Below, one piece after another: positions 2,092 to 61,801 of a stretch of 64,000 nt of DNA. Both the position numbers and the translations under genes were made by a program. How positions within the stretch are numbered: the first letter of the stretch is position 1; every line of letters starts with the position of its first letter. This DNA is from Pseudomonas graminis (GTDB lineage: Bacteria > Pseudomonadota > Gammaproteobacteria > Pseudomonadales > Pseudomonadaceae), in contig NZ_MTSB01000001.1 in the NCBI RefSeq assembly GCF_002093745.1, positions 365,863 to 429,862 of the forward strand, given 5' to 3'. Below the pieces are notes generated by a model. The model saw only the letters and a program-made list of their open reading frames with translations, was not told the origin of the DNA and made no database searches.

Positions 2092-3105
2092 ATGAGATCA
2101 ATAACACGACTGCTGGGTTGTTCACTTCTGGCGCTGGGATTGTTCGGGCCGCCCGCGATGGCGGCTGAAAAAACCACGCCGATCCAGTTCGGTGCGTTGA
2201 CCTGGGAAAGTGGCAGTCTGATTACTGAAGTCTTGCGCACCCTGGTCGAAAAGGGCTACGGCTACCCGACCGATACATTGCCCGGCAGCACGGTCAGCCT
2301 GGAAACCGCGCTGGCCAAAAATGATATTCAAGTGATCGCCGAAGAATGGACCGGACGCAGCCCGGTGTGGGTCAAGGCCGAGGCCGACGGCAAGGTAATC
2401 GGGCTGGGTAACATCGTCAAAGGCGCGACTGAAGGCTGGTGGGTGCCTGAATACGTGATCAAGGGGGATGCCGCCAAAGGCATCAAGCCTATGGCACCTG
2501 ACCTGAAGTCGGTGACTGATCTGGTTCGTTACAAAGATGTGTTCAAAGACCCCGAGTCGCCAGACAAGGGGCGTTTCCTCAACAGCCCGAGCGGCTGGAC
2601 CTCCGAGATCGTCAATACCCAGAAGCTCAAGGCCTATGGGTTGAACGACAGCTTCGTCAACTTTCGTACAGGCTCGGGCGCCGCACTGGATGCCGAGGTC
2701 GGATCCGCCATTCGCCGCGGCAAGCCGGTGCTGTTCTACTACTGGTCGCCGACCCCGCTGCTGGGCAGCTACAAATTGATCAAGCTCGACGAGCCACCGT
2801 TCAACGCCGATGCCTGGAAAACCCTGACCGACGCCAGTGATCCGAACCCGCGCGGCTCGGCCTCACTGGAAGCCACGCTTTCTATCGGTGTGTCCGCAGC
2901 GTTCAGCAAGCAGTATCCGGAACTGGTGAGCTTCTTCAAACGCGTGGATTTCCCCATTGACCTGCTCAACCGGACACTGGGTGAAATGAGCGAAAAACAC
3001 CAGGACCCACGCGTGGTCGCCAAGGCGTTTCTCGAGCAGCACCCCGAGGTCTGGAAAGCCTGGCTGCCGGCCGATGTGGCGGCCCGCGTCAGCAGTGGTT
3101 TGTAA
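2092..3105 (+). CDS. Glycine betaine/choline-type ABC substrate-binding protein (OpuAC family)
   Basis: 337-residue periplasmic binding protein. A signal peptide (RSITRLLGCSLLALGLFGPPAMA) ends near residue 24. The mature part carries the OpuAC-type pattern: an early LTWESGSLITEVL, EEWTGRSPVW in the first lobe, and FYYWSPTPLLG in the hinge/second lobe, with tryptophans that could form an aromatic cage for a quaternary amine. The ATG at 2092 is preceded by GAGGTGAG, a good ribosome site; the GTG two codons earlier is less likely. No permease or ATPase gene is adjacent, so it probably feeds a transporter encoded elsewhere. The ligand (betaine, choline, carnitine or other) is inferred from family only. 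Confidence 0.85.
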   Translation: MRSITRLLGCSLLALGLFGPPAMAAEKTTPIQFGALTWESGSLITEVLRTLVEKGYGYPTDTLPGSTVSLETALAKNDIQVIAEEWTGRSPVWVKAEADGKVIGLGNIVKGATEGWWVPEYVIKGDAAKGIKPMAPDLKSVTDLVRYKDVFKDPESPDKGRFLNSPSGWTSEIVNTQKLKAYGLNDSFVNFRTGSGAALDAEVGSAIRRGKPVLFYYWSPTPLLGSYKLIKLDEPPFNADAWKTLTDASDPNPRGSASLEATLSIGVSAAFSKQYPELVSFFKRVDFPIDLLNRTLGEMSEKHQDPRVVAKAFLEQHPEVWKAWLPADVAARVSSGL

Positions 3106-3238
3106 GCCGCTGACCGGGGCAGATGAGGTCAGGCATAGCTGATAGCGTCACTCATGGCCGTTATGCGACGTGTTCAGTGGTAAAGCCTTGTCGAGCTGAT
3201 AGGTTCAGGGTTCAGTCAATCAATGCGTGGGAGGGGTC

Positions 3239-3739
3239 ATGACTGATCATATCCAGGGCTCGCGCAGGATGTGGGCAGGTCTTGTGCTGATGATTGCCTG
3301 CCTGGGCCTGGACGCTCTGCAACCGGCAGGCGCCGAGGAGGTCGACGACACGGCGCTGGCATTGGTCGAGGAGCGAAACCTTGGCGAGGGTCTGGCCTGG
3401 CTGGGTTATCAGGTCGCCTCGCGTACGGTCGCGTTTGCCGGTATCGTGAAAGCCGTTGGCAAGATCGAGGCCCAGACGCTGGTGCAAAAGGAACTGCAGG
3501 ATCTGCAGCCTGATTATCAGGTCCAGTGGGATCGCAACCTCGCAGCGTCCTATGCGCATTCGTTCACGGCCGAAGAATTGCGCTCGCTCAATCAGGGCGA
3601 AGGGTCATCCACACTGGCAAGCCGGTTCAGGGCCAGGAACGCTCGGGTCAGCGCCGACATGAAGGCCCGCTCCTCTGAACTGCTGGAACAATTCGTGGCA
3701 CGTGCGCTGGGCAATGCTCAAATGACACTGCAACACTGA
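3239..3739 (+). CDS. Small exported protein, DUF2059-like
   Basis: 166 residues. A hydrophobic signal segment (MWAGLVLMIACLGLDALQPAGA) covers about residues 11-32, so the protein is probably periplasmic. The mature part is helical and contains SFTAEELRSLNQ, resembling the DUF2059 domain in which an FT-x-x-EL-x-x-L motif precedes a small helical bundle. The start was chosen at the ATG directly after GGGAGGGGTC, a strong ribosome site. The cytosine deaminase gene follows after 28 bp on the same strand. The function is unknown; the DUF assignment is tentative. Confidence 0.65.
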   Translation: MTDHIQGSRRMWAGLVLMIACLGLDALQPAGAEEVDDTALALVEERNLGEGLAWLGYQVASRTVAFAGIVKAVGKIEAQTLVQKELQDLQPDYQVQWDRNLAASYAHSFTAEELRSLNQGEGSSTLASRFRARNARVSADMKARSSELLEQFVARALGNAQMTLQH

Positions 3740-3767
3740 TACCTACTCAACGACACGAGGCAACATC

Positions 3768-4205
3768 ATGGACGCATTCATGCAGGCTGCATTCGACGAA
3801 GCGCAGCTCGGGCAGAAAGAGGGGGGGATTCCCATCGGCTCGGTCATCGTCCATAACGGCAAGATCATCGGTCGTGGCCGCAATCGTCGTGTGCAAAAAG
3901 CCAGCCCTACCTTGCACGGAGAAATGGACGCGCTGGAAAATGCCGGTCGCCAGCCGGCCAGCGTGTACCGCGAGGCGGTGCTTTACACAACGCTGTCACC
4001 TTGCGCCATGTGCAGTGGCGCGATCCTGCTTTACGGCATTCGCAAGGTGATTATCGGCGAGAACCAGTCCTTCATGGGCGAGGAAGCGCTGCTGCGTTCA
4101 CGCGGTGTGCAGATCGATGTGCTTGATAACGCTGAGTGCCGGCACATGATGCGGGACTTCATTACCGACAAGCCTGAGCTGTGGAACGAAGACATCGGCG
4201 AGTAA
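3768..4205 (+). CDS. Cytosine deaminase of the fungal Fcy1 type (CMP/dCMP deaminase fold)
   Basis: 145-residue zinc hydrolase. Zinc ligands are the His of HGEMDALENAGR (with the catalytic Glu) and the two Cys of SPCAMCSGAI. From memory of the family, the best match is yeast Fcy1: LYTTLSPC-x-MC-x-GAI, the YGI and GEN blocks and the final W-x-EDIGE are nearly the same in both. That C-terminal tail covers the active site in Fcy1. It is unlike TadA, and unlike the amidohydrolase-type CodA of E. coli. The likely reaction is cytosine to uracil in pyrimidine salvage. The start ATG lies 7 bp after GAGGC. Substrate assignment is an inference from this similarity. Confidence 0.85.
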   Translation: MDAFMQAAFDEAQLGQKEGGIPIGSVIVHNGKIIGRGRNRRVQKASPTLHGEMDALENAGRQPASVYREAVLYTTLSPCAMCSGAILLYGIRKVIIGENQSFMGEEALLRSRGVQIDVLDNAECRHMMRDFITDKPELWNEDIGE

Positions 4206-20989: not shown

Positions 20990-21802
20990 TTATTCGGCGA
21001 CCTGCAGTTTGCGCGACTCGGTGTACACGTAACGGACCTTCTCGTACTCGAACGGCGAGTTCAACTGGCCATAGCGGAAGCTGGTCACGTAACGGCGATC
21101 AACCGCGCGCAATACAGTGATTTCCGGATGGTCACTGCTGACTTCCGCAACGTTCAGGAAGTTGATCTGGTTTTCAGCGGTGTAGTCGAACAGCATGCCG
21201 CCCGTGTCACGCAGGTTCGAGGGGCCGAACAGGGGCAACACCAGATAAGGCCCGGCAGGCACACCGTAAAAGCCCAGTGTCTGGCCAAAGTCTTCGGGTT
21301 GGCGCGGCAACCCCATCATGGTCGCCGGGTCCCAGAGGCCCGCGATGCCAATGGTGGTATTGAGCAACAGACGACCGGTGGTATCCAGTGAGCGTTCGCC
21401 CTTGAACTGCAGCAGGCTGTTCAGCAGGTTGGAGACGTCGCCCAGGTTGCTGAAAAAGTTGCTCACGCCGCTGCGCACGAAGCCTGGGGTGACATAGCGG
21501 TAGCCGTCAACGACCGGCAGGAACACCCATTCATCAAAACGGTAATTGAAGTGATAGACCCGACGGTTCCAGGACTCCAGCGGGTCGTAGACTTCCAGCG
21601 CGTTGATGGACGCACGCTCGAACTCGCGCTGATCCAGCCCCGGGTTGAACTGCAGCGACTTGAGCGGCTGAGTGAAACCGTCCGCGTCTGTCTGGCGGGC
21701 CACGGTGGCCGGGTGCTGAGCTTTGTTGCTGGTATCCGCGTCAGCGGCCTGGACTGTGCCGGCACAGAGCAGAGCAGCAAGTAATAAAAGACGTTTAGCC
21801 AC
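20990..21802 (-). CDS. mlaA: MlaA/VacJ-family outer-membrane lipid-asymmetry protein
   Basis: 270 residues. The MlaA domain is clear: YDPLESWNRRVYHFNYRFDEW, a VTPGFVRSGVSNFFSNLGD helix pair, LLNTTIGIAGLWDPA, EDFGQTLGFYGVPAGPYLVLPLFGPSNLRDT. MlaA sits in the outer membrane with porins and removes misplaced phospholipid for return by MlaC. Oddly, no lipobox is evident: the signal region LLLLAALLCAGTVQA lacks the small residue before Cys expected for lipoproteins and looks like a signal peptidase I site. It is translationally coupled to the upstream alpha/beta hydrolase (8-bp overlap). The mlaFEDCB genes are not here. Confidence 0.9.
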   Translation of the reverse strand: MAKRLLLLAALLCAGTVQAADADTSNKAQHPATVARQTDADGFTQPLKSLQFNPGLDQREFERASINALEVYDPLESWNRRVYHFNYRFDEWVFLPVVDGYRYVTPGFVRSGVSNFFSNLGDVSNLLNSLLQFKGERSLDTTGRLLLNTTIGIAGLWDPATMMGLPRQPEDFGQTLGFYGVPAGPYLVLPLFGPSNLRDTGGMLFDYTAENQINFLNVAEVSSDHPEITVLRAVDRRYVTSFRYGQLNSPFEYEKVRYVYTESRKLQVAE

Positions 21803-23093
21803 GGAAAAACTCCAGCATGGCGTCGGTGTTGACGCGGTAATTAAGGTTGCCGCAGTGGCCGCCGTAAGGATAGACGGTCAGACGGTCACCAAAAGTCTTG
21901 CGCAGGAAGCCCAGGTCGCCCGAGCCCAGGATCACGTCGTCGGCATTGTGCATGACGGCGATCTTGGTGTTGCTGTGCAAGTAGTCCTTGAGTGCATACA
22001 GGCTCACCTGATCCACCAGTTGCAGCAGGCTGCCACCGTCGGTGCGTGCGCGCCACATCGGGATGACTTGTTCGGTCAGGTAGCAATCGAAGTCGCATTG
22101 CAGGGCGCGCTTGAGAAACGGCGTCAGGCTGGTGCCTTCGGAAATCGGGAATTTCGGTGGCGTGATCAGGCCGCGACGGTTGATCAGGTCGGACGTGAAC
22201 GCGATGTCGGCCGACGAGAAGCGGAATGACGTGCCGATCAGCATGGCCATCTGTTCGTTGGTCAGGTGCTGTTTGGACTGCTGGAAGTCGAACAGCAGCG
22301 CGTCGTTCAGGTCGATGTAACCTTTTTGCCGGAAGTAGCGCGTCAGCTTGGCGAGCACCAGCTCATAGAATGTGGTGGTGTTGTTGATGCCCTTGACGTT
22401 GGTCTGGACCAGTTTGTCCAGGTTACTGATCGAGGTGTACAGGTTGACCGGCGGGTTGAGCAGCAACACTTTCTTGAAGTTGAAGCTGCGTCGCGTTTCA
22501 TCCAGCTTGCTGACGAAGGCGGCGTCCAGCGCCCCAAGGCTGTAGCCGGTGAGGTAGTAGTCGGTCACCGGCAATTTCGCCTGCTGGGCACGAATGGCCT
22601 GCATGACGCGGTAAAGGTCTTCTGCATCGTCCGACGAGATGCCCGGGGTCGCAAAACGCGATGCCGAGGTCATGAAGTCATAGCTGGTCGGCGACGACAG
22701 CTGCACAACGTGGTAGCCCGCGCCGTAGTAGAGCTTTTTCAGGAACTCGTTGATGGTGCTGTTATACGGCGCACCGGTACCGGCGATCAGGAAGATCAAC
22801 GGTGCGGCGTGGTCCTGTTTGGCCAGACGGTAGTGCAACTTTTTCACGGCCCAGAAGTTGTCCGGCAGTGTGAACTCGCGTTCAGGGTGCAGGTTCAGCG
22901 TGTAGACGTCCTGATCGATATCCTCATCGTCAGGCAAGTCGGGACGCAGATCGGGCGGCGTGGTGGCAATGGTCGCTTCAAACGGATTAGTCAGCGGATA
23001 GCCATAGGTGGCGGGGTCGACATTGGTCGCCAGAGCGGACGCACTTAAACACAAGCCACCTATAACGGTAGCGAAGCGCAGAAAACGGAGCAT
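21795..23093 (-). CDS. Exported alpha/beta-hydrolase-like protein coupled to mlaA
   Basis: 432 residues. The signal peptide ends at ALA near residue 22. An alpha/beta hydrolase core is suggested by LIFLIAGTGAPYN, the nucleophile elbow GYSLGALDA (Ser near residue 197), a late MHNADDVILGSGD (candidate Asp) and YGGHCGNLNY (candidate His). Relatives are often mislabelled as serine/threonine kinase; no kinase motif is present. Its stop overlaps the mlaA start by 8 bp, so both are made from one mRNA, which points to a role in outer-membrane lipid metabolism, for example as a lipase or esterase. Substrate unknown. Confidence 0.75.
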   Translation of the reverse strand: MLRFLRFATVIGGLCLSASALATNVDPATYGYPLTNPFEATIATTPPDLRPDLPDDEDIDQDVYTLNLHPEREFTLPDNFWAVKKLHYRLAKQDHAAPLIFLIAGTGAPYNSTINEFLKKLYYGAGYHVVQLSSPTSYDFMTSASRFATPGISSDDAEDLYRVMQAIRAQQAKLPVTDYYLTGYSLGALDAAFVSKLDETRRSFNFKKVLLLNPPVNLYTSISNLDKLVQTNVKGINNTTTFYELVLAKLTRYFRQKGYIDLNDALLFDFQQSKQHLTNEQMAMLIGTSFRFSSADIAFTSDLINRRGLITPPKFPISEGTSLTPFLKRALQCDFDCYLTEQVIPMWRARTDGGSLLQLVDQVSLYALKDYLHSNTKIAVMHNADDVILGSGDLGFLRKTFGDRLTVYPYGGHCGNLNYRVNTDAMLEFFRG

Positions 23094-23339
23094 GACTAAA
23101 TCCCTTGGGAAAGAAGTGCTGATGAGATACGCAGGCTATGACCAAGGTGTAGTGCCAAAGTGCCGCATCCACCGGTTAACCGTGTAAATATGACGGAACA
23201 ATACACGGTCTGGGGATTTTTCAATGCAGGTCTGCGGTTTATTTTTCGCACAGAGCGGGAATGAGCTGCTTTGATCAGCCCGTTGGGGCGTCTTGAGCGT
23301 CATGGCATTCAGCGACCGGCAGGCGCGCGGGACGGCAGA

Positions 23340-23735
23340 AAGCACAAAGGAGAGCTTTCGCTCTCCTCCAATGTGTTTACGTGCTCTTTTTATTGTTATC
23401 GGTCGGCCTGTTATTGTTGTTGGCGGCCAACCGTTTACAGCGTTCTTGCGCGACCCCCACTCAGGGTCAAGAGCAAACGTATTTTTTTGAGCGCTGACTT
23501 GCTTTAATCATCTGTCTGCACAACATCATGATCCCACCGGTACTGGCGCTACCTGACGGTAGTGTTGTTGTTCTCTGCCCGGTCGCGAGGCCTTTCTATG
23601 AAAGGTCCCTGTAAAGCTGATCCACTCCAAAAAAATCTGTTAGCTGCGTCTCTGTCCGTGTTGTTCTTGTTGTCTCAGAGCCGTTACGTCTTATTGTTGT
23701 TATGGGGTGCTGCGTCATTTCTTGTTTTTGTTGTA
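23340..23735 (-). ncRNA. crcX: CrcZ/CrcX-family regulatory RNA (probably CrcX)
   Basis: Minus-strand RNA of ~395 nt in a gap without genes. It carries six A-rich clusters of the Hfq/Crc-binding type (AA-N-AA-N-AA), for example ACAACAAAAACAAG at its start, AACAACAATAAG (~23691-23705), AACAAGAACAAC (~23659-23674), AACAACAAC (~23562-23573), AACAACAATAAC (~23409-23421) and AACAATAAAAA (~23386-23399). A sigma-54 promoter precedes it and a GAAA-loop terminator ends it. CrcZ-family RNAs titrate Hfq/Crc and so lift catabolite repression; CbrB with RpoN drives them. P. syringae has CrcZ beside cbrB and a second one called CrcX. cbrB is absent here, hence CrcX. The ends are estimates. Confidence 0.82.
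23349..23366 (-). terminator. Rho-independent terminator of the Crc-family RNA
   Basis: On the minus strand: GGAGAGC-GAAA-GCTCTCC followed by TTTGTGCTTTCT. A seven-base-pair stem with a GAAA tetraloop and a broken U tract. Confidence 0.8.
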
Positions 23736-23746
23736 CAAGAGCTATA

Positions 23747-23761
23747 GCAGAAGCCGTGCCA
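23747..23761 (-). promoter_or_regulatory. Sigma-54 (RpoN) promoter of the Crc-family RNA
   Basis: The minus strand reads TGGCACGGCTTCTGC. GG at -24 and GC at -12 are separated by exactly ten bases, with the conserved TGGCAC block. The start of transcription is expected ~12 bases beyond, near 23735, just before the first A-rich cluster. Confidence 0.85.
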
Positions 23762-23843
23762 GTTTTATAAATTCCTTTTAAAACATAGGGTTGGTGTGAT
23801 TGGCGTAAATCACGCGGCTTGAGTGACACAAAAAATGTTTCCG

Positions 23844-23884
23844 TGTTACCCGTTCAGGCTGGCCACTGTCATGCTGCGGTAACA
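23844..23884. promoter_or_regulatory. Candidate enhancer site for the sigma-54 activator (CbrB)
   Basis: Inverted repeat TGTTAC (23844-23849) / GTAACA (23879-23884), 110-150 bp upstream of the predicted RNA start. Bacterial enhancer-binding proteins usually bind in this range. CbrB is the expected activator from knowledge of the RNA family. Half-site spacing is wide (29 bp), so the exact site is uncertain. Confidence 0.5.
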
Positions 23885-24271
23885 CATCCTGTTTCCTTTG
23901 CCGCGTGGGCCAGGATGGTGCGCAGCCGGACTTGCACGACGGTGCGACGATCCTCCATTCCCCGGTAACCCTGACGCGCCTTGGCGCGCTTGAATGTACC
24001 GCCTCTTCTGAAACCTGACGTTTTTCCGGTCGGCGTGTCGCTGCTGACTGTCTGTTGTCGTTTCCCGTTGTCCCGGTGTCGCAGACAGAGCATGTCGGGT
24101 GGCCCGGCAGGTTGATGATCAAGGTGACGTTGCAGTGTGTGTCACTGCGCACGTCGTCGATCAAAGCGTGCAGGGTGCGGCGTGCCCCAAAGACGGGCGT
24201 GGGTGCGGTCCTGAAAAAACAACGTTAACGATGCCCGACAACCGTCGGTGCAGACTTCCGGGGAAGCCACA

Positions 24272-25126
24272 ATGATGATGCGAAAAATACTGGGGGCGGG
24301 CGCCGCTCTGGTAGTTGCTGTCAGCTCCACGCTGGCGATAGCTGAAACCAAGACCCTGACCATCGGTTATGTAGAAGGCTGGTCCGACAGTGTCGCCACC
24401 ACGTACGTGGCTTCTGAAGTGATCAAGCAAAAGCTGGGATACGACGTCAAGTTGCAATCCGTGGCGGCGGGGATCATGTGGCAGGCGGTGGCCTCCGACA
24501 AGCTGGACCTGATGCTGTCTGCCTGGCTGCCCGGCACCCACGGTGAGTACTACGCCAAGTACAAGGACCAGGTCGTCAACTACGGTCCCAACTTCAAGGA
24601 CGCCAAGATCGGCCTCATCGTGCCTGAGTACGTGAAAGCCAAGACCATCGAAGACCTCAAGACGGATGCCTCTTTCAACAAGAAGATTACCGGCATCGAC
24701 GCCGGTTCGGGGGTCATGCTCAAGACCGATCAGGCCATCAAGGATTACGGGCTGGACGGCTACAAACTGCAGGCCAGTTCCGGCGCGGGCATGATTGCCG
24801 AACTCACCCGTGCCGAGAAGGCGCAAAAATCCATTGTCGTCACTGGTTGGGTGCCGCACTGGATGTTCGCCAAATGGAAGCTGCGCTTCCTGGATGATCC
24901 CAAAGGCGTCTATGGCGCTGCCGAGACAGTTGACAGCGTCGGCAGCCTCGGCCTGGAGAAGAAAGCGCCAGACGTCGTGGCGTTTCTGAAGAAATTCCAG
25001 TGGGCATCCAAAGACGAAATCGGTGAGGTCATGCTGGCGATTCAGGAAGGTGCAAAACCTGAAGCGGCTGCCAAGGACTGGTTGGCCAAACACCCGGATC
25101 GCGTCGCTGCCTGGACCGCCAAATAA
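24272..25126 (+). CDS. Glycine betaine-type ABC substrate-binding protein (OpuAC family)
   Basis: 284 residues. The signal peptide ends at AIA near residue 23. The mature protein has the betaine-binding pattern: TLTIGYVEGWSDSVATTYVASEVI, LMLSAWLPGTHGEYY, then ITGIDAGSGVMLKTDQAI and VVTGWVPHWMFAKW. Tryptophans in GW, AWLPGTH and GWVPHW would form the aromatic box for the trimethylammonium head. Three ATGs in a row occur at 24272-24280; the first is 6 bases after GGGGAAG. It is a single gene bounded by a strong terminator, with no permease, so it depends on a core transporter elsewhere. It is a different protein from the longer binding protein at 2092-3105. Confidence 0.9.
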   Translation: MMMRKILGAGAALVVAVSSTLAIAETKTLTIGYVEGWSDSVATTYVASEVIKQKLGYDVKLQSVAAGIMWQAVASDKLDLMLSAWLPGTHGEYYAKYKDQVVNYGPNFKDAKIGLIVPEYVKAKTIEDLKTDASFNKKITGIDAGSGVMLKTDQAIKDYGLDGYKLQASSGAGMIAELTRAEKAQKSIVVTGWVPHWMFAKWKLRFLDDPKGVYGAAETVDSVGSLGLEKKAPDVVAFLKKFQWASKDEIGEVMLAIQEGAKPEAAAKDWLAKHPDRVAAWTAK

Positions 25127-61487: not shown

Positions 61488-61545
61488 TCTACATTTTTAG
61501 CTTTTTGAGAGCTAGGCGTCGGGAGCTAAGAAACCCCAATGTAGA
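61488..61545. repeat. Nested inverted repeat upstream of the BRO-N gene
   Basis: Outer arms TCTACATT (61488-61495) / AATGTAGA (61538-61545); inner arms TTAGCT (61497-61502) / AGCTAA (61524-61529). It lies 10-70 bp before the BRO-N start codon on the minus strand. An open frame of 48 codons (ending SGLFYIGVS) reads into it from the right without a clear start; it may be a leader peptide or a gene remnant. Confidence 0.45.
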
Positions 61546-61549
61546 AAAG

Positions 61550-61801
61550 GCCGGACGTATTCCCCTTGCGGGTCTTGTATTGGTCCACTCCCGACATATC
61601 AGAGATTTTAGGACGCGCAGCCGAAGGCCGCAGGTACAAAAAGCCGCATTTTATCGGAAGCGGTCAGGCCGCTACATTTGAGTTTCTTGGGCGTTTCTTA
61701 GGCGCGGCGCAAGGGTAAGGCAGGCTTTATGACTGTGAAAGGCTTTATAGTGTAGGACTTTTCTGAAAATATCCGAAGCATCAGCTTGTGGGGCGTAGCC
61801 T
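61550..61801. other. Spacer marking the change to AT-rich DNA
   Basis: No confident gene. On the minus strand a frame without an evident start encodes a short stretch ending LRPSAARPKISDMSGVDQ and onward; it could be the 3' remnant of a small phage-type ORF. Confidence 0.3.

Follow-up and report, generated by a model that had tools for sequence, protein, structure and literature searches.

A crcX gene of the CrcZ/CrcY/CrcX regulatory RNA family between a hydrolase and a choline/betaine-binding protein gene in Pseudomonas graminis

The locus and its elements

The window analysed here is a 64-kb stretch of the Pseudomonas graminis genome, in which an MlaA-linked hydrolase gene and a divergent gene for a choline/betaine ABC binding protein enclose a gap occupied on the minus strand by a match to the Rfam CrcZ covariance model, RF01675 (Table 1). 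Spanning all model positions, 1-398, the match scores 297.1 bits (gathering score 95; E = 3.5e-83). The initial annotation had proposed a search of 23300-23800 of the minus strand with this model and had read the gene-free gap as a whole regulatory-RNA gene; all the elements that it named are present, and no open reading frame of at least 100 aa overlaps 23315-23734. The RNA folds better than its dinucleotide shuffles (z = -2.9, with one of 100 as good). Its 5' end is predicted near 23735, and its 3' end is likely to lie near 23340.

The A-rich clusters, also six in the earlier count, are far from a chance feature: six AANAANAA clusters occur in 420 nt, and none of 1000 dinucleotide shuffles reaches that number (mean 0.55, maximum 3). 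Six is the rule among the relatives as well, being found in 27 of 33 CrcX, 39 of 41 CrcY, 39 of 42 CrcZ and 7 of 9 other copies. A AANAANAA motif at 24215, in the leader of the divergent gene, was considered as a local Crc target and is not claimed, the motif being present in just 14 of 76 aligned leaders of relatives.

Comparison of the nucleotide sequences establishes the gene structure, the lineage, and the conserved promoter, half-sites, A-rich clusters and hairpin. On these comparative grounds we regard it as confirmed that the gap holds a complete and conserved crcX gene, ordinary for its group. The best explanation of the whole, to which we assign a probability of roughly 0.93, is that the locus is crcX, encoding a CbrB- and sigma-54-activated RNA of the CrcZ/CrcY/CrcX family.

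Table 1. Features at the crcX locus, numbered by position in the window
Feature	Position	Strand	Basis or remark
Downstream neighbour, hydrolase (432 aa), co-directional, MlaA-linked	21795..23093	-	No NCBIfam family; marker of the CrcX locus
crcX RNA gene	23315..23734	-	RF01675 match and tree position in the CrcX lineage; ends predicted
3' hairpin, probable terminator	23345..23370	-	11 pairs, GAAA loop; stem conserved in 33 CrcX copies
A-rich cluster 6	23387..23397	-	AANAANAA cluster scan
A-rich cluster 5	23411..23421	-	AANAANAA cluster scan
A-rich cluster 4	23565..23572	-	AANAANAA cluster scan
A-rich cluster 3	23661..23671	-	AANAANAA cluster scan
A-rich cluster 2	23691..23701	-	AANAANAA cluster scan
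A-rich cluster 1	23719..23732	-	AANAANAA cluster scan
Sigma-54 -24/-12 promoter, TGGCACGGCTTCTGCT	23746..23761	-	GG-N10-GC spacing; same place in 34/34 CrcX copies
Degenerate half-site GAAACA, about -107, place of R2	23836..23841	-	One mismatch to GTAACA; aligned block in 34 CrcX copies
CbrB-type half-site GTAACA, about -115, place of P. putida crcY R'	23844..23849	-	Perfect reverse site in 33/34 CrcX copies; predicted
CbrB-type half-site F1, TGTTAC, about -150	23879..23884	-	Perfect F1 in 34/34 CrcX copies; predicted
Upstream neighbour, choline/betaine ABC binding protein, divergent	24248..25126	+	TIGR03414, 155 bits, under the cut-off of 379

Lineage and distribution of CrcX

The genome carries three family members: CrcZ by cbrB (contig C14), CrcY by mvaB (contig C33) and the window copy, whose place between the hydrolase and binding-protein genes is a third locus. 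The initial annotation had called the window copy CrcX, the second copy, on the ground that cbrB is not nearby. The absence of cbrB is insufficient to separate CrcX from CrcY, and therefore the flanking genes and the tree decide; by these the name CrcX stands, although the copy is the third of the genome and not the second.

The tree, like the cluster counts, comprises 125 of 132 copies and omits the CrcX and two CrcZ pieces of genome G384, two short pieces of G082, and the CrcY copies of G195 and G204, which are cut by contig ends. The window copy lies within CrcX-only starred sets of 2, 8 and 13 rows, and thus groups with CrcX copies while sitting at the hydrolase/binding-protein locus. CrcZ forms a separate clade (100/100), and the CrcX lineage branches among CrcY. 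The best tree requires two changes for CrcX, with the CrcX rows of G126, G250 and G299 grouping weakly with their own CrcY copies; a single origin of CrcX would therefore be unsupported by this tree, in which its rows stand in two groups. The 'other' copy of G204 is also cut by a contig end and has a long branch.

The two groups of CrcX rows would be compatible with a relocated CrcY (or CrcZ) at the locus rather than CrcX, as would the greater identity of the window copy to its own CrcY (73.6% over 398 columns) than to its own CrcZ (63.7% over 386 columns) and its CrcY-type half-site spacing. Such a relocation is nevertheless very improbable and already largely refuted, since a further CrcY is present in the genome next to mvaB, where crcY lies in P. 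putida according to extracts of PMC6292655, and since the window copy groups with CrcX copies. Moreover, when 42 genomes were re-searched and their copies typed by neighbour genes, CrcX, CrcY and CrcZ were found at the same three loci in 30, and one more had CrcX, CrcY and a split CrcZ.

CrcX shares with CrcY (that of P. putida and the C33 copy) the six-cluster design by rule, seven being counted in the genome's own CrcY, as well as the sigma-54 promoter and the N28-30 half-site spacing; it differs in that CrcY adjoins mvaB as a co-directional upstream gene, whereas the upstream gene of CrcX is divergent. With CrcZ (RF01675, and the C14 copy) it has in common the covariance model, six A-rich clusters and a sigma-54 promoter, but CrcZ is set apart by its own clade, its N14/15 spacing, its cbrB-pcnB neighbours and the lower identity given above. 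CrcX of P. syringae pv. tomato DC3000, likened here by description only, is likewise the third family member of its group and under RpoN/CbrB control, as described in parts of PMC8657755 and PMC8871633.

Among the 80 named loci closest in hydrolase likeness out of 552, a choice biased to relatives, a family RNA was found upstream of the hydrolase in 38 and not found in 42, two of which, L052 and L095, offer a short upstream sequence (237 and 731 nt). By record title, the carriers include P. tremae, floridensis, cerasi, asturiensis, amygdali, viridiflava, congelans, caricapapayae, cichorii, syringae, graminis, petrae, bohemica and abietaniphila, while an upstream family RNA is missing from L084, L085 and L105, which carry P. 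syringae or P. viridiflava labels. A 2013 paper on CrcX reportedly called it special to P. syringae strains. The literature searched gave no paper linking CrcX with Pseudomonas viridiflava. The recurrence of the CrcX locus beyond P. syringae, as judged from these loci, is an addition to known work. We take psr1 to be crcZ and psr2 to be crcX, psr2 presumably being the first name of the DC3000 gene. Captured 5' ends in DC3000 agree with the reported psr1 and psr2 starts in a section of PMC3247240. CrcZ, CrcY and CrcX are listed for P. syringae in extracts of PMC6296734, and RpoN regulates crcZ and crcX there with CbrB as activator in those of PMC8657755. CrcX is, by these partial accounts, already described in P. 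syringae; the gene belongs to a known family and the comparative additions are modest.

Several copies depart from the common pattern. G020 (L149-L151) is labelled 'same species' as the window genome, yet its hydrolase shares just 87% identity and its CrcX takes a different position among the CrcX branches of the tree. Tandem pairs of family RNAs occur at the mvaB locus of G051, G086, G287 and G387 (L162, L179, L233, L268). Family members at loci without marker genes (L172, L174, L191, L193, L195, L204, L218, L231, L258, L259) have long branches in some cases, and in G151 and G252 they fall near the CrcY of the same genome. In G384, CrcZ (L263, about 2511-4088) is split by about 1.2 kb with a 330-aa open reading frame that appears transposase-like by eye, an inserted stretch of about 210 nt, bearing imperfect inverted repeats, lies in CrcX (L262, about 2503-3102), and CrcY looks whole.

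Sigma-54 promoter and CbrB-type half-sites

The -24/-12 promoter of exact spacing in the earlier reading is borne out. On its own, the sigma-54 pattern is weak evidence and non-significant in the window: two matches were found in 64 kb against 0.58 expected, and 10 of 100 shuffles had at least two. The match counts because it is conserved, TGGCAY-N6-TGC being at the same position in all 34 CrcX copies (that of the window and 33 others). No sigma-70-like promoter was found on either strand of 23050-24300.

The TGTTAC/GTAACA activator site of the initial annotation is also present, as TGTTAC-N29-GTAACA at 23884-23844, the sole window match to TGTTAC-N10-36-GTAACA (0.03 expected; 3 of 100 shuffles have one). 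Its spacing, however, is of the CrcY/CrcX type and not the published F1-N12-14-R1. In the alignment of the 34 CrcX copies, the promoter and half-site blocks stand out against variable sequence. A GTGATT-N6-AATCAC inverted repeat noticed by eye between enhancer and promoter was rejected, as it is unconserved across the same copies.

The consensus in the excerpted text of PMC8871633 is TGTTAC-N12-14-GTAACA-N15-19-GTAACA. The window crcX does not conform to it, R1 being absent at N12-14 and the perfect reverse site standing at N29. We compared 34 CrcX, 43 CrcZ, 43 CrcY and 9 other copies. Perfect sites are N14 or N15 apart in 41 of 43 CrcZ pairs, but N28-30 apart in 31 of 34 CrcX pairs and 32 of 34 CrcY pairs, for the most part in both as TGTTAC-N29-GTAACA; five of the 43 CrcY copies are without a perfect TGTTAC and four without a perfect GTAACA at that position. 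Because most CrcY copies also deviate, the N12-14 spacing of R1 characterizes CrcZ-type sites and not the family as a whole. That CrcX and CrcY share an enhancer spacing distinct from that of CrcZ is, on this alignment evidence, a further addition to known work.

In P. putida crcY, an extra site R' is centred at -112, and its substitution was without effect on expression, as stated in a portion of PMC6296734. Relative to the RNA start, the conserved reverse site of the window crcX is centred at about -112 and, judged by position alone, is taken to be R'; the best-kept reverse site would therefore be the one that was dispensable in the P. putida assay.

Transcript end, neighbours and proposed role

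A scan of the region gave three terminator-like sites against 1.6 expected and is by itself no evidence; the site counts because its hairpin is conserved across CrcX copies. The stem is kept in 33 copies (the 3'-end alignment leaves out G384), with one pair being A-U in 13, G-C in 19 and G-U in 1, and exceptions in two or three copies each at four of ten stem pairs. Of the GAAA-loop terminator initially proposed, the hairpin and its conserved stem remain, but CrcX copies do not conserve the GAAA loop, and the stem is followed by a short, broken U-tract. Since the loop is variable and the T-run short, termination at the hairpin is graded as likely.

The weak U-tract, a hydrolase start about 250 nt past the hairpin and the co-direction of CrcX and hydrolase in 33 of 33 regions would suit an element that serves chiefly as a long 5' leader to the hydrolase-mlaA operon, the family likeness marking a shared promoter. 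We consider this highly unlikely, as the full-length match is to a free-standing RNA family and includes the 3' hairpin, the alignment of the CrcX copies collapses soon past that hairpin, and the hydrolase occurs in the 42 loci noted above where no upstream family RNA was found. Equally unlikely is a decayed, silent copy, for which three copies, one perhaps dispensable, and the disrupted CrcX and CrcZ of G384 could speak, given that the window copy retains an intact promoter, F1, clusters and hairpin and still matches the model in full.

The partners are encoded in the genome: Hfq (100.6 bits), RpoN (235 bits), a CbrB-type regulator and Crc. The Crc protein, of 259 aa, has as its best PDB match 2myi (577 bits), an entry titled exodeoxyribonuclease III; next come 4jg3 and 4f1r (532 bits), titled catabolite repression control protein. 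NCBIfam assigns it to exodeoxyribonuclease III (TIGR00633, above cut-off). Hfq can be bound at its distal face by A-rich motifs, according to a section of PMC8395346, and the Crc protein of PAO1 reportedly does not bind RNA, as stated in extracts of PMC4063720. The 'Crc-sequestering' CrcZ-family RNA of the initial annotation is therefore better termed Hfq/Crc-sequestering.

By analogy with the relatives, crcX would be transcribed, bind CbrB in its upstream region and Hfq/Crc in its RNA, and affect metabolism. When the preferred carbon source is exhausted, CbrB would bind the half-sites, which lie between about -150 and -102, and would activate RNA polymerase with RpoN at the -24/-12 promoter. 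The resulting transcript of about 395 nt would present six A-rich stretches that sequester Hfq (with Crc), and this titration would free the repressed catabolic mRNAs. As for its origin, crcX probably derives from a duplicate of crcY that was placed in this gap, upstream of the hydrolase.

The neighbours suggest a difference in supply. All 33 CrcX regions have the binding-protein gene upstream in the opposite orientation, whereas a co-directional cbrB precedes CrcZ in 41 of 42 regions, the remaining one lacking it at a contig end, and a co-directional mvaB precedes CrcY in 38 of 38. In P. putida, crcZ and crcY also arise by processing of longer cbrB and mvaB transcripts, as reported in part of PMC6292655. 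Because its upstream neighbour is divergent, CrcX should be without such a read-through supply and need its own promoter, which predicts a strictly CbrB/RpoN-dependent expression; this applies to the 24 of 38 carriers with a short gap between the binding-protein gene and the hydrolase, as in the window. A large open reading frame lies between these two genes at L050 (2882-4681, 599 aa) and L094 (3745-5331, 528 aa) and is absent from the short gap of the window. That of L050 reads as co-directional with CrcX; by gap length, such a frame may be present in 14 of the 38 carriers.

Carbon catabolite repression in Pseudomonas depends on the amount of Hfq/Crc sequestered by decoy RNAs, of which some species carry three. 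We tentatively suggest, while regarding it as rather doubtful, that CrcX is no mere spare: as the sole syringae-group decoy of the three without a co-directional upstream gene it might be purely CbrB-switched, and the F1-N28-30-reverse-site geometry of CrcY and CrcX, kept across species, might point to a CbrB arrangement tuned apart from that of CrcZ. Testable handles are provided by a CrcX lineage at one locus beyond P. syringae, by the spacing that separates CrcY and CrcX from CrcZ, and by a copy without a co-directional upstream gene.

Two Rfam families, RF01675 and one other, are over their cut-offs in the whole 64-kb window; far from crcX, RF02221 (sRNA-Xcc1) matches at 61510-61595 of the minus strand with 64.2 bits against a gathering score of 53.
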